This document shows positions 1-14,306 of a stretch of DNA of 64,000 bases, one piece after another. This stretch comes from Borborobacter arsenicus (GTDB lineage: Bacteria; Pseudomonadota; Alphaproteobacteria; Rhizobiales; Rhizobiaceae): positions 179,881-243,880 of the forward strand of contig NZ_ML133508.1 in NCBI RefSeq assembly GCF_003934165.1, written 5' to 3'. A program made the position numbers and the translations under genes. Below the pieces are notes generated by a model, which worked only from the letters and a program-made list of their open reading frames with translations, did no database searches and was not told the origin of the DNA. Each line of letters opens with the position of its first letter. The stretch's first letter is position 1.

Positions 1-580
1 AGGCTTCCGGCTCCTTGAAGGCCACAAAGGGCGGCATCTGCACGCGATCCTCTGCCATGCTGTAGAAGGCCCGGTCCCCGCCCTCGCGGATCACGGCGCC
101 GGTCGCTGTAAAGAACGCCTCCGCCCTCTCGATGCGCGCTACCGGCTCAAGGGCCGGTTCCTGCACGGCGTAGAAGTGCGCTGGCAATCCCTCCACCTGT
201 TCGGCATTGAAAACGGTGTAGCCCTTCATGAAAGGAATCTCCCGCTCTAAGTCCTCGCCGGTCGCCTCGTCCTGTTCAGTGCGCTTGATGGTGTTGGCGT
301 AAACGACAAGGCTCCCCTTCTCGCCCTTCCTCACCTGTCCGCCCAGCTCCTGCGCCTGTTTGTAGGTTAGCCACAGCGGGGCATTGAAGCCCTGCGCAGT
401 GGCGGCTGCCCAGAGCATCAGAACATTGATGCCGCGATACGGGATGCCGCTTGCTCTTAAGGGCCGGGTGATGCGCCCGGCGGCGTGCTCGGCGTTCCAA
501 GGCTTGAGCCATGGCCGCACGCCCTTTTCCAGCTCTGCAACAATCTGGTCGGTGATGCGCTGATAAACGTCTGTTGGCAT
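1..580 (-). CDS. ArdC-like antirestriction protein (3' part cut by window edge)
   Basis: The frame opens at an ATG at 578-580 behind a strong AGGAG ribosome site and stays open to the window edge, giving about 193 residues. The N-terminus (MPTDVYQRITDQIVAELEKG, then PWLKPWN, YRGINVLML, W-TYKQA, LGGQVRKGEKG) matches the ssDNA-binding N-terminal domain of ArdC-type antirestriction proteins (DUF1738). These normally continue into a zincin-like metallopeptidase domain that would lie outside the window. ArdC proteins bind single-stranded DNA and protect incoming conjugative DNA from restriction, so this gene suggests that the element transfers, or once transferred, by conjugation. Family assignment is from memory of the motif pattern; activity is inferred. 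Confidence 0.85.
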   Translation of the reverse strand, partial: MPTDVYQRITDQIVAELEKGVRPWLKPWNAEHAAGRITRPLRASGIPYRGINVLMLWAAATAQGFNAPLWLTYKQAQELGGQVRKGEKGSLVVYANTIKRTEQDEATGEDLEREIPFMKGYTVFNAEQVEGLPAHFYAVQEPALEPVARIERAEAFFTATGAVIREGGDRAFYSMAEDRVQMPPFVAFKEPEA

Positions 581-1179
581 TGGTCTTTCTCCTAGTCTTG
601 TTGTGGTTGCGCCATGCAACCGGACTAGGCCCGCGCCAATGAGCGGGGGGTCGGCAGTCAGGACCGCCGCCGGGGACAGGGGTATCTCCCGGCCTGCACA
701 AGCGCAGCGCGGAAGGTCGGGGAACGCCCCGGCGGCGTCCGTAGCGTTAGCGGAGGGCTTGGTCTTGACGGCTCCGGGGGCGGCACGCCCCCTACTGGTT
801 TAAAAACGGCGGCAGCGCCGCCAGGGGGGCGGAGTCCCCTTCTGTCTTCAATGCGGCGGCGTCAGCGCCGCACGTCAGTGCGCCGGCAACGCCGGCTCCG
901 CTCTGTTTTCTTGCGCGAGGGATTGAAACCGTCTGGCGGAGACGACGCAGCGGCTCCGGGCACAGCCTGAAAGCCCGGTCCGGCCCGCCGGACGCGCCCT
1001 CATCCTGATCTCTTTGCTTGTGTCAGCTCTGACGACGACGCCCAGATGGCGGCGTCCCCTTCTCCCTCATGTTTTGCTGAGGCCTTCCGGCCATGCAGTC
1101 CCGTTCCTTGTGCCGATTGTGTGTGTGTCCGGGCACGAACGGTCCCGATGTCCGGGGCCTTGAAAACAAGGAGGAACGA
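581..1179. other. GC-rich intergenic stretch, no convincing gene
   Basis: Six hundred bases lie between the divergent ardC-like gene and the 62-residue ORF. Short open frames exist on both strands, but they have no ribosome site and no recognisable protein pattern. The main content is the run of GC hairpins listed separately. The right end carries the AAGGAGG ribosome site of the next gene. Confidence 0.6.
776..896. repeat. Cluster of GC-rich hairpins
   Basis: Four perfect stem-loops follow each other: GGGGGCG/CGCCCCC with loop GCA (776-792), GGCGGC/GCCGCC with loop AGC (808-822), TGCGGCG/CGCCGCA with a 7-nt loop (852-872), and GCCGGC/GCCGGC with loop AAC (882-896). A weaker GGGG/CCCC pair lies at 826-839. 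None is followed by a T run, so they are not typical intrinsic terminators. The function is unknown; possibilities are a protein-binding array, part of an oriT or single-strand origin, or an RNA structure in the 5' region of the gene at 1180. Confidence 0.6.
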
Positions 1180-1368
1180 ATGAACACCTTACTGACCATC
1201 AGCGAGCTGCAACATCGCACCGAATCCGACCTGCGGGCTCTGTTCCGTCAGGCGAGCCAGGCGCTCGCCCGCACGGCGGCGGGCACGCCGGAGCGCCGCA
1301 ACAACCTCGCCACACTCGAAAACATCGCGCGCGCACTGGCGCACGCACCGGGAGCGCGGGGCTTTTAG
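1180..1368 (+). CDS. Small conserved-looking protein of unknown function (62 aa)
   Basis: The ATG at 1180 is chosen because an ideal AAGGAGG site sits at 1168-1174; an earlier in-frame start at 1093 has none. The product (start MNTLLTISELQHRTESDLRA) is predicted to be helical and Arg/Ala rich, with no membrane segment and no domain I recognise. Its stop overlaps by 4 nt the stop of the opposing gene, so the two converge. It probably belongs to the accessory cargo of the integrated element. I do not assign a function. Confidence 0.6.
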   Translation: MNTLLTISELQHRTESDLRALFRQASQALARTAAGTPERRNNLATLENIARALAHAPGARGF

Positions 1369-2096
1369 CCCCCGCTTTTCCCCTCGGGGCCGCGCCGTAC
1401 CGGCCGCTTGGACTGCACCGACATATGCCGCTCTGTTGCCTCCAGAGCCCGCCGGCAGTCCGCTAATGCCGGGTCGCCGAACAGCGGGTCGGCTGGAGAG
1501 CTATCTAGCAATGCGATCGCCTCTTTGATGGAGCGTACGGCCCGCTCGTGCTGGTCCTGCACTTCCGCCCCGATGGCCTGGAGCAGTAGGTCGACGACCG
1601 GCGCGCTTTTCCCGGATACGGAGCCCGCAAGCCGCAGAAGCTTCACAGCCGAGCGTAGGTAATGGAACGCCTCCACGTCTGAGGCGTGCCGGCTGCTGAA
1701 CTCCGCGGCAACCCGATCTTCACGTTCGCGCGGTGCCGCGCTCAGGATCTCGTCAGCCTCATCGCTTTCATCCCGCACTTCCGCAACGCGCGCGATGCCG
1801 AGATGAGATTCGGCGACATCGTAGGCACTCTCCGAGCGCAGATAGACCACCGACGACCCGGGCTCGCCTTGCTCGTCATAGAGCATGACGAGCGCCCGGC
1901 GGCGTTCAACCAGCGCGCGCCGAACGCCCTCTAGGTACAGCTCCGCTGTCCCTACCTTGTCTATCCAGCAATTGACCGGAGGATGCGCGCGGCGAAAATC
2001 CGCGAACCTCTTGTTCAGTGCGTCGTGTAGGGCCGGGTCATCCTGCGGACGCCCCCACCAAGCCCCCTCATCTTTGTGATCCGCGCTGCCGGACAT
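1365..2096 (-). CDS. Unknown protein of the integrated element (243 aa)
   Basis: This soluble, acidic protein with a basic C-terminal tail begins MSGSADHKDEGAWW. The central part is predicted helical (about residues 120-215), and a VQDQHERAVRSIKEAIALLD segment resembles a helical-repeat or four-helix fold. I recognise no family. It has a weak AGAG ribosome site. It lies downstream of the parA/RHH pair on the same strand, with an 84-nt gap, so it may be the third gene of that transcript. There is no signal peptide or membrane segment. A role in maintenance or transfer of the element is only a guess from position. Confidence 0.6.
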   Translation of the reverse strand: MSGSADHKDEGAWWGRPQDDPALHDALNKRFADFRRAHPPVNCWIDKVGTAELYLEGVRRALVERRRALVMLYDEQGEPGSSVVYLRSESAYDVAESHLGIARVAEVRDESDEADEILSAAPREREDRVAAEFSSRHASDVEAFHYLRSAVKLLRLAGSVSGKSAPVVDLLLQAIGAEVQDQHERAVRSIKEAIALLDSSPADPLFGDPALADCRRALEATERHMSVQSKRPVRRGPEGKSGG

Positions 2097-2180
2097 CGCG
2101 ATTCTCTGCTTTGTCAGTCTAGATGCGCAGCCGCCTCAAAGCTGCGCCTGCCGCAGCCTACACGAAAGCCTGCCCTTTGA

Positions 2181-2558
2181 TCAGCGGTTTTGCTTGTTCT
2201 CGGGGGCATGACCGTGTTCGCGCTGAAGAAGCGCGACGGCGCGCTCTAGCGTTTCTCCGAGTCCCCAGCCCTGCGCATCGGCAATCGCGCAAAACTCTTC
2301 AATCGTCTCAGGGCGGGCTTTCAGATTGAACTGCGCGTTGCGCCCTGTGCGCCGCCGGCGCGGTGGATCACTGCGCACGGGCGGCTTTACCACTTCGGGC
2401 TGCGGTTCCCGGCTGCGGAATCCAGCGGCGGCGGCGGCCTTCTCGGTCGCCACCTTGGGCGGCTTTTCATTGACCGCCGGGGCGCGCGGCATCCAATCGC
2501 TCGCATTGAAATCTTCGAGGGCATCGGCAAAGCCGAGATCAGCGCGGTTGTCGGTCAT
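2181..2558 (-). CDS. Ribbon-helix-helix partner of ParA (ParB/StbC-like)
   Basis: The frame overlaps the parA stop region (GTGATCATGACC: the ParA stop TGA lies within it), so it is translationally coupled to parA. I take the ATG at 2558; a GTG at 2564 is also possible. The N-terminal 75 residues are low-complexity (Ala, Pro, Arg; RRRRTGRNAQ). The C-terminal 45 residues, NAQFNLKARPETIEEF through GLGETLERAVALL, have the beta-strand plus two-helix pattern of ribbon-helix-helix DNA-binding proteins. Small RHH proteins encoded straight after a short ParA are usually centromere-binding adaptors and autorepressors. Likely targets are the 40-bp repeats upstream of parA. Confidence 0.75.
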   Translation of the reverse strand: MTDNRADLGFADALEDFNASDWMPRAPAVNEKPPKVATEKAAAAAGFRSREPQPEVVKPPVRSDPPRRRRTGRNAQFNLKARPETIEEFCAIADAQGWGLGETLERAVALLQREHGHAPENKQNR

Positions 2559-2560
2559 GA

Positions 2561-3247
2561 TCACGCTACCTTGGCGGCAACCGTGCCGCCTTTCAGTTTC
2601 GCAATGACCTCGCCCGCAAAGGCCCGGGCGTTCTCGATGGCTCTATCCACATTGCTGACTTGGTCGCTGCGAAGATCAGACAGCAGTCCCCCGAAATCAA
2701 AGATATCGCGGAAGGCGGCACGCTCGACGATGGACGTGGAGAAGACATCGATCGCCGCCTTATCCAGCTGCTCGCGAACATTCCGCAGCGCGCGCGATGT
2801 GACGGCGGCGCTGGTGCGGGTCAGAAGGATGCTGTGAGGAATTTGCCGGCGCGAGAGGCGCTCTTGATTGCGGATCAGCCTGATGGTCTTGGCGGCGCCC
2901 TTCGCGTCCATAGACGCACCCTGCGCCGGGATGATGACAAGGTCTGACATGCCGATGGCATTGGCGACCATGAGGCTGGCCGTGCCTTCAAGATCGACGA
3001 TGACGAACTGCGCTTTGGCCGCGGCGTTCTCGATAAGATCGACAATCGTGTCTTCGGTCACGTCCGCGATGATATCGATGTTGGATGGCTTGCCCGGCAT
3101 TTTGCCCCACTGCGAAATCCAGCGCTCGGGGTCTGCGTCAATGACGGTGACGCGTGCGCCTTTGGCGGCAAGCTCTCCTGCAAGAAGTAAAGCTGATGTA
3201 GTTTTTCCGGCTCCACCTTTGGGATTGGCAAATGAGACTACAGGCAT
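2561..3247 (-). CDS. parA: ParA-family partition ATPase (228 aa)
   Basis: The deviant Walker A KGGAGKTT is at residues 10-17 with the signature lysine at 10, followed by the conserved VIDADPE and the Walker B VIVDLEGT. At 228 residues without an N-terminal HTH domain it is the short type (Ib-like) ParA of plasmids and integrative elements. In that class the DNA-binding partner, not ParA, binds the centromere and represses the operon. The start at 3247 has only a weak ribosome site. The gene heads an operon with the RHH gene and is preceded by 40-bp repeats. Role: active segregation of a plasmid-like or excised form of the element (inference from family). Confidence 0.9.
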   Translation of the reverse strand: MPVVSFANPKGGAGKTTSALLLAGELAAKGARVTVIDADPERWISQWGKMPGKPSNIDIIADVTEDTIVDLIENAAAKAQFVIVDLEGTASLMVANAIGMSDLVIIPAQGASMDAKGAAKTIRLIRNQERLSRRQIPHSILLTRTSAAVTSRALRNVREQLDKAAIDVFSTSIVERAAFRDIFDFGGLLSDLRSDQVSNVDRAIENARAFAGEVIAKLKGGTVAAKVA

Positions 3248-3292
3248 GCACGCTCACTATGTAAAAGATTAAATGAATCACCTTCTTACAAA

Positions 3293-3320
3293 ATAATACC
3301 AGATAGCTACTGGCTACCAA
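3293..3320 (-). promoter_or_regulatory. Candidate parA promoter inside the repeat array
   Basis: On the minus strand TTGGTA (3315-3320) and TATTAT (3293-3298) are separated by 16 nt. The -10 matches the sigma-70 consensus in five of six positions, the -35 in four. The first 40-bp repeat unit starts between the two hexamers, so a protein bound to the repeats would cover the promoter, as expected for partition operons that repress themselves. Confidence 0.45.
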
Positions 3321-3464
3321 ACAGCAATCTATTGGTTATCCGATAGCTACCGGCTACTAAGCAGCAATCTAATAGATATCGGATAGCTAGTTGATATCCA
3401 GAAAGTAGCTTGCCGCTATCATTCAAGTAGCTATCAGGAAGCTATCCGTTAGCTAGCCGCTACC
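3302..3464. repeat. 40-bp tandem repeats plus inverted copies (putative centromere or iterons)
   Basis: GATAGCTAC-type units begin at 3302, 3342 and 3382, an exact 40-bp period. The first two units agree over most of their length (GATAGCTAC, GGCTAC, CAGCAATCTA); the third is degenerate. Beyond them the motif recurs in inverted form: GTAGCT...GCTATC at 3405-3420, GTAGCTATC at 3427-3435, GCTATCC at 3441-3447 and GCTACC near 3459. The region is AT-rich compared with its surroundings. Position upstream of parA fits a partition site; iterons for the Rep-like gene at 3901 are the alternative. Confidence 0.75.
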
Positions 3465-3737
3465 GCTTCCCGGCCCACACCGCCCGGAACTGAAGCAAAT
3501 CGCACGCCGCAAGGCATGAGATATGACAAGAGATTCGGTGATTCTGCGGGTAATTGCACGATTCGGCTGTCTCAGGGTCGCGCCGAGAATCAGACAACAG
3601 TGCACGAAAGCCCTGCAAACCCGCATCGCGGGAGAACCGACTTGCTATAGCCGGAGACATTGCTGACAATTTGTTGTGGCTCCACAAGAGCCGCGCCAGT
3701 CTTCAATCACTCAAGAGGCGATTTTGAAATAACAAAA
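3465..3737. other. Intergenic, nothing recognised
   Basis: Between the repeat array and the leader hairpins there is no gene I can support. A 75-codon minus-strand frame (3460-3687) has no ribosome site and an odd Cys/His-rich composition; I regard it as chance. Confidence 0.5.
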
Positions 3738-3762
3738 AGAAAACCCGCCAAGAAGGGCGGGT
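3738..3762 (-). terminator. Intrinsic terminator reading on the minus strand
   Basis: The inverted repeat ACCCGCC/GGGCGGGT with a 5-nt loop is bordered on its left by an A-rich run, which on the minus strand becomes a GC stem followed by TTTTCTTTTT. No minus-strand protein gene lies upstream, since the next gene to the right is on the plus strand. The terminator therefore may end a short antisense RNA. Confidence 0.6.
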
Positions 3763-3764
3763 CG

Positions 3765-3844
3765 CTCGATAAATCGAGATATTCGTGAAATCAGCACTCC
3801 GAATATCTCATGCTCTAAAACTAATCGCAATACATTTTTGCGAT
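3765..3844. repeat. Three consecutive inverted repeats in the leader of the Rep-like gene
   Basis: CTCGAT/ATCGAG with a 2-nt loop (3765-3778), GAGATATTCG/CGAATATCTC with 14 nt between (3776-3809), and ATCGCAA/TTGCGAT with 7 nt between (3824-3844). The first two share bases, so they could be alternative structures. Such chains occur in copy-number-control leaders and at operators. A plus-strand promoter candidate overlaps the last arm. Confidence 0.6.
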
Positions 3845-3865
3845 GAGATCGCGCGCCCATATTTT
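3838..3865 (+). promoter_or_regulatory. Candidate promoter of the Rep-like gene
   Basis: TTGCGA (3838-3843) and TATTTT (3860-3865) are 16 nt apart, 35 nt before the ATG at 3901. The -35 hexamer is the right arm of the inverted repeat ATCGCAA/TTGCGAT, so binding of a regulator there would block transcription. Confidence 0.35.
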
Positions 3866-3900
3866 CTGCGGGTTTTCTCCGAACGATAAGGAGAAACCAA

Positions 3901-4590
3901 ATGACTATGCAAAATGATGCGCAGGCCGCTTTCATCGAATCGGCACGCGCCCTCAAGAATCGAGCCGTGCCCTCCCAAAGCCTGCGCGTTCCGACAATCG
4001 ATCCCGAGCGCCGTCAGCGATCACTGCAGACTTGCCACCGTTATGCGGCAACCGAGCGTCCACGCCGCGCGGTCTCGCCCACGGGCAATGGCTACGTGCC
4101 GGAGCTGGCCGCGCGCATCGAAGACGATCCGAACCTTACCGACGGTGCGCGCCGCTGCGCGCGCAAACTGGCGGAGCTGACCTTTCGCCAGAACAGAGAA
4201 GGGCGGGTACTGCCGGTGACGGTCACTTACCTGGCTCGCGCACTTGGGCGCTGCCGCCGTTCGGTGCAACGCTATCTCAGGCAGTTGGAGGAGGGGGGCT
4301 ATGTGGCGGTCGAGGTCGTAGCCTCACCGCGCTCGCGCATGTGCATCGGGCTCATGGTCCGACTGCTCGCGCCGCTTCTGGCCGCCCATCACCGTCAAAG
4401 CTGGCCGCAAAGCGCCCAGAACCCAGGGGCGACACCAGAGTCACTGAATCATAGGTTCAGGTTATTATTTCAAGGAAAGGCTTGCAGCATGCCCGTCGAC
4501 CAATGGGCACTGCGATGCATGGACGGCGTGTTCCGTTCCCTTATGAAAACGAAACCGCTCACCGTACTGCCGCCGGTCCATCTCGCCTGA
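3901..4590 (+). CDS. Winged-helix protein, possible replication initiator of the element (229 aa)
   Basis: The ATG follows a good AAGGAG site (3888-3893). Residues about 75-165 (LTDGARRCARKLAEL, then VTVTYLARALGRCRRSVQRY, then LEEGGYVAVEVV) form a clear winged helix of the kind in phage and plasmid replication or primase-loading proteins: sequential helices, a recognition helix after CRRSVQRY and a wing. The N-terminus is basic, and the C-terminal 60 residues have no family I know. The placement after a structured AT-rich leader and beside parA suggests an initiator or regulator for replication of the excised element. A plain transcription regulator is the alternative. The frame is intact. 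Confidence 0.65.
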   Translation: MTMQNDAQAAFIESARALKNRAVPSQSLRVPTIDPERRQRSLQTCHRYAATERPRRAVSPTGNGYVPELAARIEDDPNLTDGARRCARKLAELTFRQNREGRVLPVTVTYLARALGRCRRSVQRYLRQLEEGGYVAVEVVASPRSRMCIGLMVRLLAPLLAAHHRQSWPQSAQNPGATPESLNHRFRLLFQGKACSMPVDQWALRCMDGVFRSLMKTKPLTVLPPVHLA

Positions 4591-4724
4591 GAGAACGGCT
4601 GCACCAGCAAGGCTAATTGCGGCCCGGTAGAGGGGCGGAGTGGTCAGTATTGCCTTCAGGGGGTGGGTTTGGCGTGGTCAGTGCCAGAACCCGCCATAGC
4701 GCAACGTCACGAAAAGGCGGGGCG

Positions 4725-5372
4725 TTACGCCGCCAGCCTTCGCGCCGCGATCCGGTGATAGTTGCGGTCCAGCTCTATGCCGACATAGTCGCAATCTGCC
4801 TCGCAAGCCGCGACAAGGGTCGATCCCGAACCGCAGAACGGGTCCAGCACCAGCCCGCCTTTGGGGCAGAACGCCTCGATCAGGGGCTTCAGGATAGCCA
4901 CGGGTTTCTGCGTCGGATGCAGGCGGTTCCCCGTGTAAGGGAAGTCGATGACATCAGCCGGCGGGTTCTCCGGCAAAGCGGGGCGGCCCTTGGCCAGCAC
5001 ATAGGCGGACTCGTGCGTGTAGCAGACGAACCGGGAAGCGGACGCGTATTTCTTCCGAAAGACGATGTGGCCTACGATCCGGAAACCGGCCGCGCGCCAG
5101 GCGCCAATGAAGCGGTCGGTCTGCGTCCAGCCGTAAAAGCTCACGCACAGGCTGTCGTTCTTCAAAACCCGGAACATCTCGCGCGCGGCCGGTCCCAGCC
5201 AACGGCCATTGTCGTCATTGATGATGCGGCGACCGTCGCGGGATTGATAGCGCACGAGATAGGGAGGGTCGGTCAGGATGAAGTCCACCGACCGGGCGGG
5301 CATCCGGCGCATGACGCTGATGCAATCACCCTGATGGATCACGTTGCGGGAAAAGAGACTGGTCTGGTTCAT
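4725..5372 (-). CDS. Orphan site-specific DNA methyltransferase (N6-adenine/N4-cytosine, beta class)
   Basis: The catalytic motif DPPY (residues 35-38) comes first and the SAM-binding motif DPFCGSGST near the C-terminus (about 175-185), the motif order of beta-class methyltransferases such as CcrM. The start MNQTSLFSRN at 5372 has a GGAGG site; an upstream extension of the frame to 5519 is rejected for its non-protein-like composition. At 215 residues it is short, holding the catalytic core with no CcrM-type C-terminal DNA-binding domain. There is no restriction endonuclease gene beside it. With the ArdC-like gene it probably protects the element against host restriction. Target sequence cannot be read from the gene. 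Confidence 0.88.
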   Translation of the reverse strand: MNQTSLFSRNVIHQGDCISVMRRMPARSVDFILTDPPYLVRYQSRDGRRIINDDNGRWLGPAAREMFRVLKNDSLCVSFYGWTQTDRFIGAWRAAGFRIVGHIVFRKKYASASRFVCYTHESAYVLAKGRPALPENPPADVIDFPYTGNRLHPTQKPVAILKPLIEAFCPKGGLVLDPFCGSGSTLVAACEADCDYVGIELDRNYHRIAARRLAA

Positions 5373-5636
5373 GGCGTCCTCCGGCCTTGTTTTTGCGTTT
5401 CGACGCGGAGGGACAGGACGGCTCGCCAAGGAGGCGGCGCACCGCAGAGAACACGGCCAACACGGGAGCGCATGCGAAGGAGCGGGCAGGCCGTTGCGCC
5501 GACGACTGCGGGCCGTCACCGCTGCGATACTCTCCGAAACGCAACAAGGCCGGATGCCAAACCGGCCCCGTTATCCCGCCTGACGTGACCAGACTGTGCT
5601 CAATCCAGCAGAGATGCTGCCGGGCAGTGTCCGGCC

Positions 5637-5897
5637 ATGGACACGCCGGGCCACAAGCAGAATGATTGCGCGCATGCGGAGCGCCACGGCTTCCGCGTGG
5701 CCGATGATCTTGCGGACCTGCCGGTTTCGGACGGTGAGTTGGACGCCGTTGAAGCCTTCCTGATGGCCGCATTCCGGGCCGTGATGGCGGGCGAAACTCC
5801 GCCCAAAGCCAAGGATTCCGGCATTTCCGACTCGGATCAGCCGCAAACCCATGTTGATATCGACCAAGCAAACCGGGTTCGGAGACGAGCGCGATGA
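5637..5897 (+). CDS. Small protein coupled to the recombinase (86 aa), unknown
   Basis: An acidic 86-residue product, start MDTPGHKQNDCAHAERHG, with a helical core (DGELDAVEAFLMAAFRAVM). Its stop overlaps the recombinase start by 4 nt (ATGA at 5894-5897), which is good evidence that both are translated together. There is no recognised domain. Small genes coupled to large serine recombinases sometimes encode directionality factors or regulators, but this one shows no helix-turn-helix pattern. The ribosome site is weak, so the exact start is uncertain. Confidence 0.5.
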   Translation: MDTPGHKQNDCAHAERHGFRVADDLADLPVSDGELDAVEAFLMAAFRAVMAGETPPKAKDSGISDSDQPQTHVDIDQANRVRRRAR

Positions 5898-7540
5898 AGA
5901 CCATGTCCGCATCTGCCGATCAGGGCGCGCCGCTCCGGGCCGCGCTTTATCTGCGCGTGTCCACAGGCCGGCAGGCGGAGAGTGACCTCTCGATCCCGGA
6001 TCAGCGGCGGCAGGCGATGGCCTTCTGTGCCGCGCGCGGCTGGACCGTAGCTGCCGAATTCGTCGATGCCGGTTTATCCGGCACAACCGACAACCGGCCA
6101 GAGCTGCAACGCCTCCTTGAGATTGCCACGGGCGGCGGCTCGCCCTTCGATGTGGTTCTGGTGCATTCGCTCAGCCGCTTCATGCGCGATGCGTTCTTGC
6201 AGGAAATGCACGTCCGCCGCCTCGCGAAAGCTGGCGTGCGCCTTGTCTCGATGACGCAGGAAGTGGGGGATGACCCCGTCGGCGTCATGGTCCGGCAGGT
6301 CTTTGCGCTTTTCGATGAATACCAGTCGAACGAGATCAGGAAGCATGTCAGCCGCTCGATGAACGAGAATGCCCGGCAGGGCTTCTGGAACGGTGCGGCT
6401 CCGCCCTTCGGCTATACGACCGTCGCGGCCGGAGAGCGTGGCGCGCGCATCAAGAAAAAGCTCGCCGTCGAACCTGTCGAGGCAGAGACCGTGCGCCTCA
6501 TTTTCCGGCTCCTGATGGAAGGAGACGGTATCTCCGGCCCGATGGGCATCAAGGCGGCGGTGTGCTGGCTGAACGAGCGCGGCTACCGCACGCGCGGCGG
6601 AGCGCGGTGGGGCATTGGTCCGCTGCATAACCTTGTGACCAACACGGTCTACAAGGGCGAGGCGGTTTTCAACCGCAAGGACTCCAAGACGCGCAAGGAA
6701 AAGCCGGCCTCCGAGCACATCGTCGTCGCCTGCGATCCGATTATCGACCCAGCCAAGTTCGACGCCCTTCAGGCGAGCCTCAAGGCCCGCAACCCGAAGG
6801 CCTCGCCGCCGCGCGTTGTCACCGGGCCGATCCTGCTGACCGGCGTCGCTACCTGCGCCAGCTGCGGCGGGGGCATGACAATCCGCACCGGCAAGTCCGG
6901 CCGGTATCGCTACTATGTCTGCGCCACCTGCGCCCAGAAGGGCAAATCGGCCTGCAAGGGCCGGTCAGTACCCATGGACCGGCTCGATGACGCAGTCATG
7001 GAGCGGATCAGCGAACAGCTCCTGACCCCGGAGCGGGTGGGGACGCTGCTGCGCGGCCTGATGTATCGCCAGACCCGCAAGGACGAAGACCACGTAAGCC
7101 GCCTGTCGGCGCTCCGGGGAAAACTGTCCGACGCCGAAAACCGGCTGAACCGGCTGTATCAGGCTATCGAGAACGGCATCGCCGATGCTACTGACCCGAC
7201 CCTGAAAGACCGGGTGGCCGCCATCAAGACCGAGCGGGATATCGCTCAAACGGCTTTTGACCGGGCTGTCGCCGAAATGCGCCCGGACGCCCGGATCACA
7301 GAGGACAAGATCGCCGCCTTCGTCGAGGTCATGCGCCAGAACGTGCTGACCGGCGACACGTCCTTCCGCCGCTCATACCTGCGCGCCGTCATCGACAAGG
7401 TCGAGGTCGATGATACGGAAATCCGTATCCACGGGCGGCGGACGGTTCTGGAGCGTCTGGTGATGGGTGGCGGGGCCGCTCCGGCCGGAGTGCCCAGTTT
7501 TGTTCGTGAATGGCGCACCCGACAGGATTCGAACCTGTGA
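5894..7540 (+). CDS. Large serine recombinase (integrase) of the element (548 aa)
   Basis: The N-terminal resolvase domain has YLRVSTGRQ with catalytic Ser23, the regularly placed Arg residues and [12 protein letters not shown]. The recombinase domain (about 165-270, GYTT...[10 protein letters not shown]...) follows, then a zinc ribbon (CASC...CATC...C, about 320-350) and a coiled-coil segment (about 390-470). This is the full architecture of large serine recombinases that integrate and excise mobile DNA. The last ten codons (WRTRQDSNL, stop TGA) are the antisense of the tRNA-Arg 3' end, so the C-terminus is supplied by the attachment site. The gene is the last of the element and abuts the host tRNA. 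The frame is intact and the catalytic residues present, so it looks functional. Confidence 0.93.
7511..7540. other. Probable attachment site (att) core region
   Basis: The recombinase frame ends inside the tRNA gene, sharing 30 nt with the CCA end and T arm. Integrated elements that use tRNA genes carry a copy of the tRNA 3' end, which regenerates the gene, and the integrase gene normally lies next to it. The opposite att copy would be found to the left of this window. The true crossover dinucleotide cannot be fixed from one end. Confidence 0.55.
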
Positions 7541-7587
7541 CCTCTGCCTTCGGAGGGCAGCACTCTATCCAGCTGAGCTACGGGTGC
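7511..7587 (-). tRNA. tRNA-Arg (anticodon CCG)
   Basis: Read on the minus strand, the acceptor stem GCACCCG/CGGGTGC, a D arm with GCTCAGCTGGATAGAGT, an anticodon stem CTGCC/GGCAG with loop CTCCGAA (anticodon CCG), a TTCGAAT T loop, discriminator G and encoded CCA are all present. The length is 77 nt including CCA. The gene is complete, so integration restored the 3' end. It is the boundary between the mobile element (left) and the core chromosome (right). Confidence 0.96.
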
Positions 7588-7784
7588 CTGGCCGAAACGA
7601 AAAGTGCCCCGGCGGCAATCTGCGGCGAACCGCTCGATCCCGCGCTTCATAGCTGATGCATCCGCAGGCTTCAACGGGGAAATGGAGTTGGTGGCAACGC
7701 AGCTTCCAAACCCAATGGCAGCCGCTGCTCTACTTCTTGTTTTGCGGCGTTTCTGCGACGCGGGAGGATTTCGTCTGGCTGCAG

Positions 7785-9278
7785 CTAGGCAGGCCGGCGC
7801 AGATTGCCGCGGACCTGGTCGAGCCTGACAGGCTGATCGGGGATGGTCACGCAAAAAACAGTCCGTCCGCCGATGCTTTCCACAAGCTCGACCGTGCCGC
7901 CATGCGCCCGCACGAGTTCATGGGCGATAGCAAGACCAAGCCCGGTTCCCCCGCTGCGGGCGGAGCCGCGGAACGCCGAAAACAGGTTCTCCCGTGCCTT
8001 CTGCGGCAGGCCGGGGCCCGTATCGATAACCTGAATGCGACTGACGCTGCCTTGACGCTCTGCGGAGATGGACAGCCGGTTGACCGTCGCGTTTTCGCGA
8101 TTGGTGGTCATGGCCTGGAGCGAGTTGCGGCACAGATTGGTGAGCACCCGCAAAAGCTGCTCGGCGTCGGCATCGACCTCAAAATCGGCATCGACGCCGT
8201 TGATGAATTCGACTTCGCCATCGGGTTCGATGCCGAGCAAGCCTTGCATTTCCTCGACGATCTGGCGCAGCCGCAGCCTGCGGCGGGCGGGCGCCGCTTC
8301 CTGCGTGCGGCCATAGGTCATCACCCCCTCGGAATAGGAGACGGCCCTGTCGAGCGCGCGCACCAGCTTCGGCGCCAGCGACTGGACCGTGGGGTCGTCC
8401 ACCGTGCCTAGCCGGTCCGACATCAACTGAGCCGATGCCAGCATGTTGCGCATGTCGTGATTGATCTTGGAGACGGCAAGGCCGAGGTCGGCCAGATGCT
8501 TCTGTTCGCCGAGCGTTTTGTGCAGGCGCTGCTGCATGTCGGACAATTCCCGCTCCGCAACTCCGATTTCATCGGCGCGATGCTCCGGCTCGATGATGCG
8601 GCCGGGATCGTCCGGCGCCTGCGAGAAAGCCAGCATCGAGCGCGTCATGGTACGGATAGGCCGGATCATGATGCGGTCGATGGCGTAGAAGACGAGCGTT
8701 GCGGTGATGAGCGAGATAAGCAGCGAGAGGAGCGCTACATTGCGCGAATAGATCAGCATCGCTTTGCGCAGGTTGCTGTCCGGGATGATCAGCTCGAACT
8801 CCTTGTCGCTTTCGCCTACGGGTCCGAAGACACGCAGCATGCGGTCGCCGCCGAAAAACAGTGTATCGAGCGCACCGCCCATCGCCGCTGCCGGGCCGGT
8901 ATGGGCAAGATCGACATGTTCATCGACCTGCGGCGGCATTTCGGCAACGACCAGAAGCCGCGAGATGCCAGCATCGCGCACGGCGATCGCCTTGGCGCCG
9001 ATCGACATCAGCACATCGTTCTGCACATTGCGCGAGAGGTTTTCCGGATTGCCCTGAACCAGGAGTACGGACACCGCCGCTGCCGTCCCCAGGCGCTCTT
9101 CCAGCCAGCGCAGGCGAAAATTGGCAACCGAAGGCAGGAAGATCAGCACCTCGGCGATCATGACGAAAATGATGGTCAGGACGAGCAGCTTGGTCGACAG
9201 GCCCCGTGCCAACGACACAGCATGCGCGGGCGGGTCGCTTAGATTTGTTGTTGAATTGGTGGGGGAGTTGTCTGCCAT
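7785..9278 (-). CDS. Membrane sensor histidine kinase, orphan (497 aa)
   Basis: Two membrane helices (about 28-48 and 181-200) enclose a periplasmic sensing region, followed by a HAMP segment (about 200-252), an unusual H box KINHDMRN with His274, the N box NLCRNSLQAM, and ATP-binding motifs DTGPGLP and GGTGLGLAI. It therefore autophosphorylates on His274 and passes phosphate to a response regulator. No response regulator gene is adjacent: the neighbours are a tRNA on one side and a flavoprotein on the other, so the partner must be elsewhere. The H box context HDMRN, in place of HELRTP, puts it in the HWE-unlike group that resembles NtrB-type HDMRNPL kinases. The signal is unknown. Confidence 0.9.
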   Translation of the reverse strand: MADNSPTNSTTNLSDPPAHAVSLARGLSTKLLVLTIIFVMIAEVLIFLPSVANFRLRWLEERLGTAAAVSVLLVQGNPENLSRNVQNDVLMSIGAKAIAVRDAGISRLLVVAEMPPQVDEHVDLAHTGPAAAMGGALDTLFFGGDRMLRVFGPVGESDKEFELIIPDSNLRKAMLIYSRNVALLSLLISLITATLVFYAIDRIMIRPIRTMTRSMLAFSQAPDDPGRIIEPEHRADEIGVAERELSDMQQRLHKTLGEQKHLADLGLAVSKINHDMRNMLASAQLMSDRLGTVDDPTVQSLAPKLVRALDRAVSYSEGVMTYGRTQEAAPARRRLRLRQIVEEMQGLLGIEPDGEVEFINGVDADFEVDADAEQLLRVLTNLCRNSLQAMTTNRENATVNRLSISAERQGSVSRIQVIDTGPGLPQKARENLFSAFRGSARSGGTGLGLAIAHELVRAHGGTVELVESIGGRTVFCVTIPDQPVRLDQVRGNLRRPA

Positions 9279-12485: not shown

Positions 12486-14306
12486 ATGGAAAATAACCGA
12501 AACTTCCTCATCACGATCGCGCTGTCGGTGTTGATCCTGACACTATGGCAGGTGTTCTACATGAACCCGCGCATCGAGCGTGAGCGCGAGGTCGCCCGCA
12601 TCGAGGCCGAACGAGTCGAAGCCCAGAAGCCGACGCAGCCGGCAGCGCCTGGCGTTGGCGGGTCGGATGTTCCAGCGCCTGCGCCAGGTTCAATGCCAGG
12701 CATTCCGGGAAGCGACGGTGGTGCAACCCAGGCGGGCCGCGATCAGGTGCTGGCCGGCTCGCAGCGCGTCCAGATCGACACGCCGAGTCTTGATGGTTCG
12801 ATCAACCTGACCGGCGCGCGCATCGACGACTTGCGGCTGAAGCACTACCATCTGACCGTCGAAAAAGATTCCCCCATCATCGACCTGCTCAGCCCGTCCT
12901 CGCTTCCGAATGGCTACTATGCCGAGATCGGTTTCGTCGGCAATGAGGCGACGGGTACTGTTCCTGGACCGGATACGGTTTGGACGGCGGAACCAAATGC
13001 CACGCTGACACCGACGACACCGGTCACGCTTACCTATACCAATGACAAGGGCCTGACGTTCAAGCGCACCATTAGCGTCGATTCGGACTATATGTTCACG
13101 ATCTCCGACACGGTGACGAATAGCGGGCAGGCACCGGTGTCTCTTGCCAATTACGGCCGCGTCATCCGCTTCGACAAGCCCACCACCGCAAGCATCTATG
13201 TGCTGCATGAAGGCCTTGTCGGCGTTACCGGTGAGGAAGGCCTGCAGGAAATCAAATATTCGAAGATCGAGGACGACAAGCAGGTCGTTCCCGGCAAGTC
13301 GAATGATGGCTGGCTTGGTATCACCGACAAATATTGGGCGGTTGCGCTGGTGCCGAGCGCCAAGCAGCCGTTCCAGCCGCGTTTCAGCTATTTTTCCGAG
13401 GGGCGCCCGCGCTATCAGACGGACTTCATGACCGACCCGCTGACGGTTGATGCCGGTAAGTCGGCAACCGTCGAGACGCTGGTCTTCGCCGGAGCGAAAG
13501 AGGTTGCCAAGGTCGATGCCTATGAGACCGATCGCAACATAAGGCAGTTCGAACTGCTGATCGACTGGGGCTGGTTCTATTTTATCACCAAGCCGATGTT
13601 CTGGCTGATTGACACGCTCTACAAGCTGCTCGGCAATTTTGGCCTGGCCATCATCGCCACCACCGTGCTGGTCAAGGCGGTGTTCTTCCCGCTCGCCAAC
13701 AAGTCCTACGCATCGATGGCGAACATGAAGAAGGTTCAGCCCAAGATGCTGGAAATCCGCGAGAAATACGCGGACGACAAGATGAAGCAGCAGCAGGCGA
13801 TGATGGAGCTCTACAAGACGGAGAAGATCAATCCGCTGGCCGGTTGTTGGCCGGTCCTGATCCAGATCCCAGTCTTCTTTGCGCTCTATAAGGTGCTCTA
13901 CATCACCATCGAGATGCGGCATGCGCCGTTCTTCGGCTGGATACAGGATCTGGCGGCACCCGACCCGACCTCGATCTTCAACCTGTTCGGTCTCCTGCCT
14001 TTCGCAGTACCGGCCTTCCTGATGATCGGTGTGTGGCCGCTCATCATGGGCATCACCATGTTCCTGCAGATGCGCATGAACCCGACCCCGCCCGATCCGA
14101 CCCAGGCGATGATCTTCACCTGGATGCCGATCATCTTCACCTTCATGCTGGCCTCGTTCCCCGCGGGTCTTGTCATCTACTGGGCCTGGAACAACTTCCT
14201 GTCGATCATCCAGCAGGGCGTCATCATGAAGCGGCAGGGCGTGAAGATCGAGTTGTGGGACAATCTTGCGAGCCTGTTCCGAAAAAAACCCAAACCGGCG
14301 GAATAG
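12486..14306 (+). CDS. yidC: Membrane protein insertase YidC/Oxa1 (606 aa)
   Basis: An N-terminal signal-anchor helix (about 7-25, FLITIALSVLILTLWQVFY) is followed by a Pro/Ala/Gly linker, a large periplasmic beta domain (about 95-340) and five C-terminal membrane helices. The conserved C-terminal region includes NPLAGCWPVLIQIPVFFALY and MPIIFTFMLASFPAGL. The protein inserts and folds inner-membrane proteins, alone or with SecYEG. Length is as expected for Gram-negative YidC. It is the last gene before a terminator at 14387. Confidence 0.98.
   Translation: MENNRNFLITIALSVLILTLWQVFYMNPRIEREREVARIEAERVEAQKPTQPAAPGVGGSDVPAPAPGSMPGIPGSDGGATQAGRDQVLAGSQRVQIDTPSLDGSINLTGARIDDLRLKHYHLTVEKDSPIIDLLSPSSLPNGYYAEIGFVGNEATGTVPGPDTVWTAEPNATLTPTTPVTLTYTNDKGLTFKRTISVDSDYMFTISDTVTNSGQAPVSLANYGRVIRFDKPTTASIYVLHEGLVGVTGEEGLQEIKYSKIEDDKQVVPGKSNDGWLGITDKYWAVALVPSAKQPFQPRFSYFSEGRPRYQTDFMTDPLTVDAGKSATVETLVFAGAKEVAKVDAYETDRNIRQFELLIDWGWFYFITKPMFWLIDTLYKLLGNFGLAIIATTVLVKAVFFPLANKSYASMANMKKVQPKMLEIREKYADDKMKQQQAMMELYKTEKINPLAGCWPVLIQIPVFFALYKVLYITIEMRHAPFFGWIQDLAAPDPTSIFNLFGLLPFAVPAFLMIGVWPLIMGITMFLQMRMNPTPPDPTQAMIFTWMPIIFTFMLASFPAGLVIYWAWNNFLSIIQQGVIMKRQGVKIELWDNLASLFRKKPKPAE

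Follow-up and report, generated by a model that had tools for sequence, protein, structure and literature searches.

The window analyzed here, 64,000 nucleotides of contig NZ_ML133508.1 of Borborobacter arsenicus, contains a large serine recombinase gene that ends inside a tRNA gene. We regard it as highly probable that this gene belongs to an integrative mobilizable element whose attachment site, attP, would lie in the 3′ part of the element’s own recombinase gene, and that integration swaps the native tail of the enzyme for a tail encoded by antisense tRNA sequence. In the mechanism we propose, crossover would take place within a short core, TGGCGC for tRNA-Arg or TGGCGG for tRNA-Ser, that would correspond to the antisense of the encoded CCA end of the tRNA and of the bases before CCA. 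The tRNA would stay intact because nearly all of its sequence comes from the host. Integration would cut the recombinase gene from a native tail of ~17–24 codons, which stays behind at the opposite end of the element, and would join the gene to antisense tRNA sequence that provides a new tail and stop codon. The arrangement is real, and it recurs across the recombinase family.

Boundaries of the insertion

The window recombinase (Table 1) has the domains of a large serine recombinase, with Pfam matches to Resolvase, Recombinase and Zn_ribbon_recom in that order, all above the curated cut-offs. Its best NCBIfam match is the SCC recombinase CcrB (NF047343), yet the score of 154.8 bits is far under the model cut-off of 900, and hence the protein does not fall within the CcrB equivalog. 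SCC uses the rlmH gene. An AlphaFold model made with nine sequences had a mean pLDDT of 56.7, and residues 530–548 were below 50. The earlier note had placed the stop codon 30 nt into the antisense strand of tRNA-Arg(CCG), and the overlap is exactly as it claimed: the stop is the TGA at 7538–7540, and an in-frame Trp codon, TGG at 7511–7513, is complementary to the CCA encoded by the tRNA gene. The target is the sole tRNA-Arg(CCG) among the matches in the B. arsenicus genome.

Table 1. Features of the element and its target in the window
Feature	Position	Strand	Basis
Right part of the predicted 29.6-kb element; remainder outside the window	1..7516	+	Left-end homology
VirC1/ParA-like ATPase of the element	2561..3247	-	Profile match
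Element gene for a helix-turn-helix protein; HTH_36 match weak, barely over cut-off	3901..4590	+	
N6_N4 DNA methyltransferase of the element	4725..5519	-	Profile match
Large serine recombinase ORF, integrated-state reading, 548 aa	5894..7540	+	ORF and Pfam
Element-encoded part of the recombinase, through ..GVPSFVRE	5894..7510	+	Comparison with S. meliloti junctions
Right attP arm GGAGTGCCCAGTTT, in inverted orientation to the arm at the left end; protein reading falls in the GVPSF stretch	7487..7500	+	
Core TGGCGC, read as Trp-Arg and complementary to the CCA end of the tRNA; crossover somewhere within it	7511..7516	+	S. meliloti, by homology here
Codons T R Q D S N L and the stop, supplied by the host	7517..7540	+	
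tRNA-Arg(CCG), intact target gene	7511..7587	-	ARAGORN

The boundaries of such an insertion are visible in Sinorhizobium meliloti. Strain ml21 carries, on pSymB (CP140937), a 71% identical recombinase in a tRNA-Arg(CCG) gene, as part of a 38.55-kb insert; in strain ml66 (CP140944) the same place is empty, with flanks 99.9% identical to those of ml21. The only stretch common to the empty site, the left junction (host..GAC-TGGCGC-GCCCGAGAGGATGAAACTGGGCACTCC) and the right junction (..CCCAGTTTTGTTCGTAAG-TGGCGC-ACCCGACAGG..tRNA) is TGGCGC. Hence, every codon beyond Trp-Arg belongs to the host tRNA gene, and the claim that the host tRNA gene supplies the end of the enzyme stands, for the last seven codons and the stop. 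The crossover in S. meliloti lies somewhere inside TGGCGC, the antisense of the tRNA’s encoded CCA end, and the arms GGAGTGCCCAGTTT and AAACTGGGCACTCC are opposed across this core. A short common core (6 bp in this relative), as opposed to a long direct repeat, is a mark of large serine recombinases. Relatives lacking the element, to which the earlier note had looked for a check, do exist, and ml66 proves insertion, not chance overlap. This boundary evidence comes from one occupied/empty pair, a second occupied record (CP140959) being near-identical. A search for a second empty site with the flanks of genomes G219 and G265 yielded none; the G265 flank ends in repeated sequence. In G265, a ~127-bp repeat (L106 1346–1472) ends 8 nt before a left-end core; it recurs several times in G150 and G307, often at the end of a contig.

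It had been anticipated that a second copy of 7511–7540 would mark the left end of the window element. Across the whole genome, this segment matched only the site itself, a relic on contig C16 and three other tRNA-Arg genes; there was no second copy in the 64-kb window, nor in C2:140001–243880 by 12-mers. A displaced tRNA 3′ segment as the left end is therefore ruled out, the ends sharing only TGGCGC, and the far end holds none of the displaced tRNA fragment by which Islander recognizes tyrosine-integrase tDNA islands. A second copy is not needed, because the junctions share only these few bases. The inverted arm led to the left end instead: the left-end pattern matches the genome once only, at C2:157797, with TGGCGC before it at C2:157778 and, after it, sequence resembling the left end in S. 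meliloti. By homology, the left end is placed at G000:C2:157778 (window coordinate -22102), which would make the element 29.6 kb long, ending at window position 7516.

An empty relative of the 29.6-kb element was not found, and its flanks do not match in G001–G003. Window positions 7688–7778 are a rearrangement breakpoint: in G001–G003 the histidine-kinase gene (7785–9278) adjoins tRNA-Arg(ACG), and tRNA-Arg(CCG) with ~100 bp of 5′ flank is located elsewhere. The B. arsenicus tRNA-Arg(ACG) is at C2:119712–119788, on the other strand. The sister species G002 has a 50-nt, 98% identical copy of the tRNA-Arg(CCG) 3′ end ~55 kb from the gene (G002:C5:129907–129956, L021), with no tRNA gene there; this looks like the far end of another island.

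As delimited by homology, the 29.6-kb element is mobilizable and carries mercury and arsenic genes. Among the ORFs scanned are an ArsR-type regulator, an SBF-family transporter (ACR3-like by eye), MerT and MerR, and a mercuric-reductase-like flavoprotein was recognized by eye at C2:159505–160926. A MobA/VirD2-like relaxase (PF03432) and a VirD4/TraG coupling protein (T4SS-DNA_transf) are also present; together with the recombinase, these are the components that define an integrative mobilizable element. A type IIG restriction-methylation enzyme, further methyltransferases and a VirC1/ParA-like ATPase were also recognized.

A family of recombinases at tRNA genes

Matches to the recombinase at E ≤ 1e-100 occurred in 48 of 297 genomes of Rhizobiaceae, and a scan of named genomes gave 11 further loci; three other species of the genus had no match at E ≤ 1e-30. 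Beyond these, viral contigs held one distant relative (28% identity) and phage records one at 48.7%. We studied 42 loci: the window copy (L011), a paralogue in the same genome (L012), 29 loci from the 297-genome search and the 11 from named genomes. A tRNA gene lies at the recombinase end in 36 of the 42, with an in-frame Trp codon there that is the antisense of CCA, although the TGG part of this result was not blind, since our script sought an in-frame TGG ≤12 nt from the expected place. The targets are tRNA-Arg(CCG) in 15 cases, tRNA-Arg(ACG) in 11, tRNA-Ser in seven, tRNA-Glu in two and tRNA-Gln in one, the last a 31-residue relic. In five of the other six loci the recombinase is followed by the 3′ half of a tRNA-Arg alone, and in one it runs off the contig. 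Because 36 of 42 recombinase loci end in a tRNA gene, the overlap is not due to chance, contrary to what the earlier note would have concluded from a missing second copy of the tRNA segment. Its remark that serine recombinases are seldom found in tRNA genes agrees with a 2014 paper, the available portion of which describes tRNA genes as rarely used by these enzymes (PMC4383910), but it does not hold for the present family, with tRNA genes at 36 of the 42 loci.

The recombinase stop is set by the host T stem. Among the 26 tRNA-Arg cases, 21 have the stop 30 nt inside the tRNA, four have it 66 nt inside and one 15 nt inside. With tRNA-Ser, the distance from the tRNA edge to the stop ranges from 33 to 276 nt over the seven cases, and five of these stops fall beyond the tRNA. 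Near-identical enzymes consequently have different ends according to the host tRNA: the window enzyme ends in TRQDSNL, L072 (97% identical) in TRQDSNLRPLDSESNTLSN, and L073 (96%) in TR. In a branch with ~50% identity, tRNA-Arg genes give the ends TRQDSNL or ARKDSNL, and plasmid sites give AIC or TTMASKPTAAR. These host-set ends and the S. meliloti pair bear out the view that the C-terminus depends on the target and would be altered by excision.

The same genome holds two further traces of the family. The paralogue L012 (G000:C1:151501–153111), 57% identical, runs 57 nt into tRNA-Glu(TTC) near an ORF that by eye resembles a DNA methylase; its left end was sought and not found. The relic on C16 (G000:C16:29899–30025; L008 9890–10022) is an 82% identical recombinase 3′ end joined to a tRNA 3′ half, with no tRNA gene, followed by sequence resembling, by eye, IS66 orfA.

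Left ends were sought with one pattern for each of two clades. The clade-1 pattern, allowing up to 3 mismatches, was found at 19 places in 14 of 15 genomes, with none for the reversed control. The clade-2 pattern, allowing up to 1 mismatch, was found at 86 places in 57 of 297 genomes, some of which may be chance matches since the control columns sum to 18; one of the 30 clade-2 places fetched (L187) looks like such a match. The clade-2 pattern is commoner in recombinase-bearing genomes (23/48 vs 34/249; Fisher p = 5e-7). Where a left end and a recombinase share a contig and are no more than 100 kb apart (25 left ends: 19 clade 2, 6 clade 1), the left end is always upstream of the recombinase, on the same strand. 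In all 18 elements with both ends, the left end begins with the six bases of the target class (TGGCGC in 13 for Arg, TGGCGG in five for Ser), a match that is partly by construction because the bases before the crossover are host bases. There are also many left ends with no recombinase, some in series, which suggests repeated visits and decay. Four lie in series within 6.4 kb at G302:C23:112657–119073, three lie near tRNA-Arg(CCG) in G001, and at L118, and at L115 in G034, right-arm-like sequence stands just before a left end.

The native tail and its precedents

What would the recombinase gene encode in a free circle? The earlier note did not anticipate that a native tail would be retained at the other end of the element. 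Read from TGG in the gene frame, the left end of the B. arsenicus element would give the tail WRTGQDETGHRYVIVGAL. The predicted tail in S. meliloti is WRAREDETGHSYVIVAPIHF, and those of other branches are WRAAPGEDDNYVYAIAL, WRAENDETENYVYAIAL and similar, with ..DETENYVYAIAL.. in relatives. We collected 54 tails (18 clade 1, 36 others) from 65 rows by removing five with no TGG start and six duplicates. The frame is open: 14 of the 18 clade-1 tails have their first stop at codon index 18 and one at 20, with three having no stop in the 30 codons read, and all 36 of the other tails stop at index 17–24, at no single place. Clade-2 tails end variously in -AL, -ALP, -ALQN and -ALHSPP.

For non-overlapping nearest pairs of tails, we compared the fraction of changes that are synonymous with that for random placement of the same changes (500 sets). 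In clade-1 codons 11–17 the synonymous fraction was 0.53, versus 0.27 for random placement, and 0/500 sets were as high; for codons 1–17 there was also an excess (3/500), and for codons 1–5 there was none (140/500). Clade-2 tails that had not been found by the pattern, a set of 15 chosen by eye with their translations in view, had a fraction of 0.40 versus 0.26 (1/500). The excess was weaker in clade-2 codons 9–16 (17/500, a biased comparison because the search pattern allowed third-position changes) and weak in codons 1–8 (42/500). Tail pN/pS ranged from 0.32 to 0.61 across six tests. On Agrobacterium pAtCG920, 50 residues of a clade-1 recombinase are joined in frame to a clade-2 tail, and in L111 a shorter remnant of a recombinase end is joined in frame to such a tail. 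A search for an intact recombinase contiguous with its native tail found none, and no circle was observed. Together, these data moderately support a free tail that would be translated and selected as protein.

The nearest precedent is dsiB of Dehalococcoides (PMC3146451). In the portion of that paper available to us, DsiB is, as here, a CcrB-like serine recombinase at the 3′ end of an RNA gene, tmRNA in that case, and its gene overlaps the attachment site; the dsiB stop codon falls beyond the border of the island, and the authors, who remark on its absence, propose that the circle might encode the complete enzyme and that full function may exist only there. As described in the same portion, the Dehalococcoides islands differ from ours in the tmRNA target, the ssrA direct repeats and the partner recombinase, DsiA, and no native tail is identified there. 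The window family, unlike DsiB, targets tRNA genes, and its elements keep a conserved tail at the end away from the recombinase.

The integrase of phage Mx8 is a tyrosine recombinase. According to the accessible text of a review (PMC6070905), its attP also lies inside the integrase gene and integration makes a new 3′ end, reportedly changing the specificity of the enzyme without inactivation; unlike here, that text describes a phage integrase with two attB sites, and no tRNA 3′ CCA core. In phage BPs and in prophages of Mycobacterium abscessus, as far as the available text of two papers extends (PMC4557955, PMC8092301), attP likewise lies inside a gene whose C-terminus is replaced on integration; integration of this type removes a degradation tag, and some attB sites overlap tRNA 3′ ends. 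The gene there encodes a repressor, the integrases are tyrosine integrases, and the serine integrases described in the same texts disrupt protein genes. By homology with S. meliloti, attP in our element would lie in the recombinase gene and not in a repressor gene.

The main text of a survey of serine recombinases, in the form available, makes no mention of tRNA (PMC10083194), and the accessible part of a 2026 survey of both integrase kinds and tRNA sites does not include the present case (PMC12884075). We did not find this recombinase family or its tail in the open literature, our search lying mostly outside subscription journals. Within these searches, tRNA targeting by such a family, together with a conserved free-form tail, is new. 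The family uses tRNA-Arg, tRNA-Ser and tRNA-Glu through their common CCA end, which may let related enzymes switch tRNAs harmlessly. The native tail at the far end of the element, with its signs of selection as protein, would supply the missing half of the dsiB puzzle. Serine integrases serve as genome tools, and enzymes cloned from integrated copies of this family would bear a host-made tail in place of the native one.

Alternative readings of the tail

The tail swap might give the enzyme different properties in the free and inserted states. We infer that its activity or stability would not be the same before and after integration, such that the tail would report the state of the element. A more specific version is that integration acts as a molecular switch, in which an acidic-hydrophobic free tail (a degron, an autoinhibitor or an integration-promoting peptide) is exchanged for the antisense-tRNA tail and the enzyme thereby senses integration; we offer this tentatively, and think it rather less probable than not. 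The overlap could also be neutral, attP having come by chance to lie at a gene end where the tail after the last domain is dispensable, with conservation of the left end reflecting only binding of attP as DNA. This reading falls a little short of an even chance. The tail does overlap the attP arms, and the clade-1 arms are symmetric at one register in all six elements, with 0 to 20 of 300 shuffled arms as good (5% or better in five of the six). Moreover, some of the tests for synonymous excess were not significant, and the integrated ORF reads past the tRNA with no stop in five of the seven tRNA-Ser cases, which implies no strong selection on the end as integrated. DNA binding alone fits poorly with the synonymous excess in clade-1 codons 11–17 and in the unpatterned clade-2 set. 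Outside clade 1, just two of 12 elements have arm symmetry at 5%, both originally found by symmetry; hence, symmetry does not explain the conserved NYVYAIAL there, where the tail may have another role at the DNA level.

Two further readings concern what the native tail is and where crossover occurs. If the native tail were an ssrA-like degron, the free enzyme would be short-lived and integration would remove the tail, much as happens to the repressor of phage BPs. There is a resemblance between tails such as NDETENYVYAIAL and the ssrA tag of E. coli, with shuffle p ≤ 0.05 in 24 of 36 clade-2 and 8 of 17 clade-1 tails; the median score was reached by 1/400 other TGGCG-started peptides for clade 2 and 9/400 for clade 1. 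The BPs system itself is a precedent, as presented in the accessible text (PMC4557955). Against this, the host’s own tmRNA tag, ANDNYAEARLAA, is resembled, by shuffling, by none of 17 clade-1 and two of 36 clade-2 tails (6/400 control peptides as good for clade 2, 354/400 for clade 1), and the tails lack the C-terminal -AA of an ssrA tag, ending mainly in -AL, -AI, -PL or an extension. The case for a degron is thus weak, and we consider that function unlikely. We give almost no credence to the other reading, that the element carries a tRNA 3′ half and crosses over at the anticodon loop, as in tyrosine-integrase islands, and so supplies the last codons itself. It would account for five loci (L054, L058, L076, L078 and L081) in which a tRNA-Arg 3′ half, interrupted close to the anticodon loop, comes after the recombinase. 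However, a tyrosine integrase gene follows at once in all three of these loci that were scanned (L076, L078 and L081), which points to a second element in the same tRNA, and the tails of near-identical enzymes vary with the host tRNA. The occupied and empty junctions place the crossover at the CCA end, which refutes an anticodon-loop crossover for the S. meliloti element.

The tyrosine integrase genes beside the broken tRNA-Arg 3′ halves are at L076 9840–11297, L078 11786–12988 and L081 11792–13195. In L078, a gene for a reverse transcriptase domain protein (RVT_1; 12997–14292, minus strand) adjoins the tyrosine integrase.
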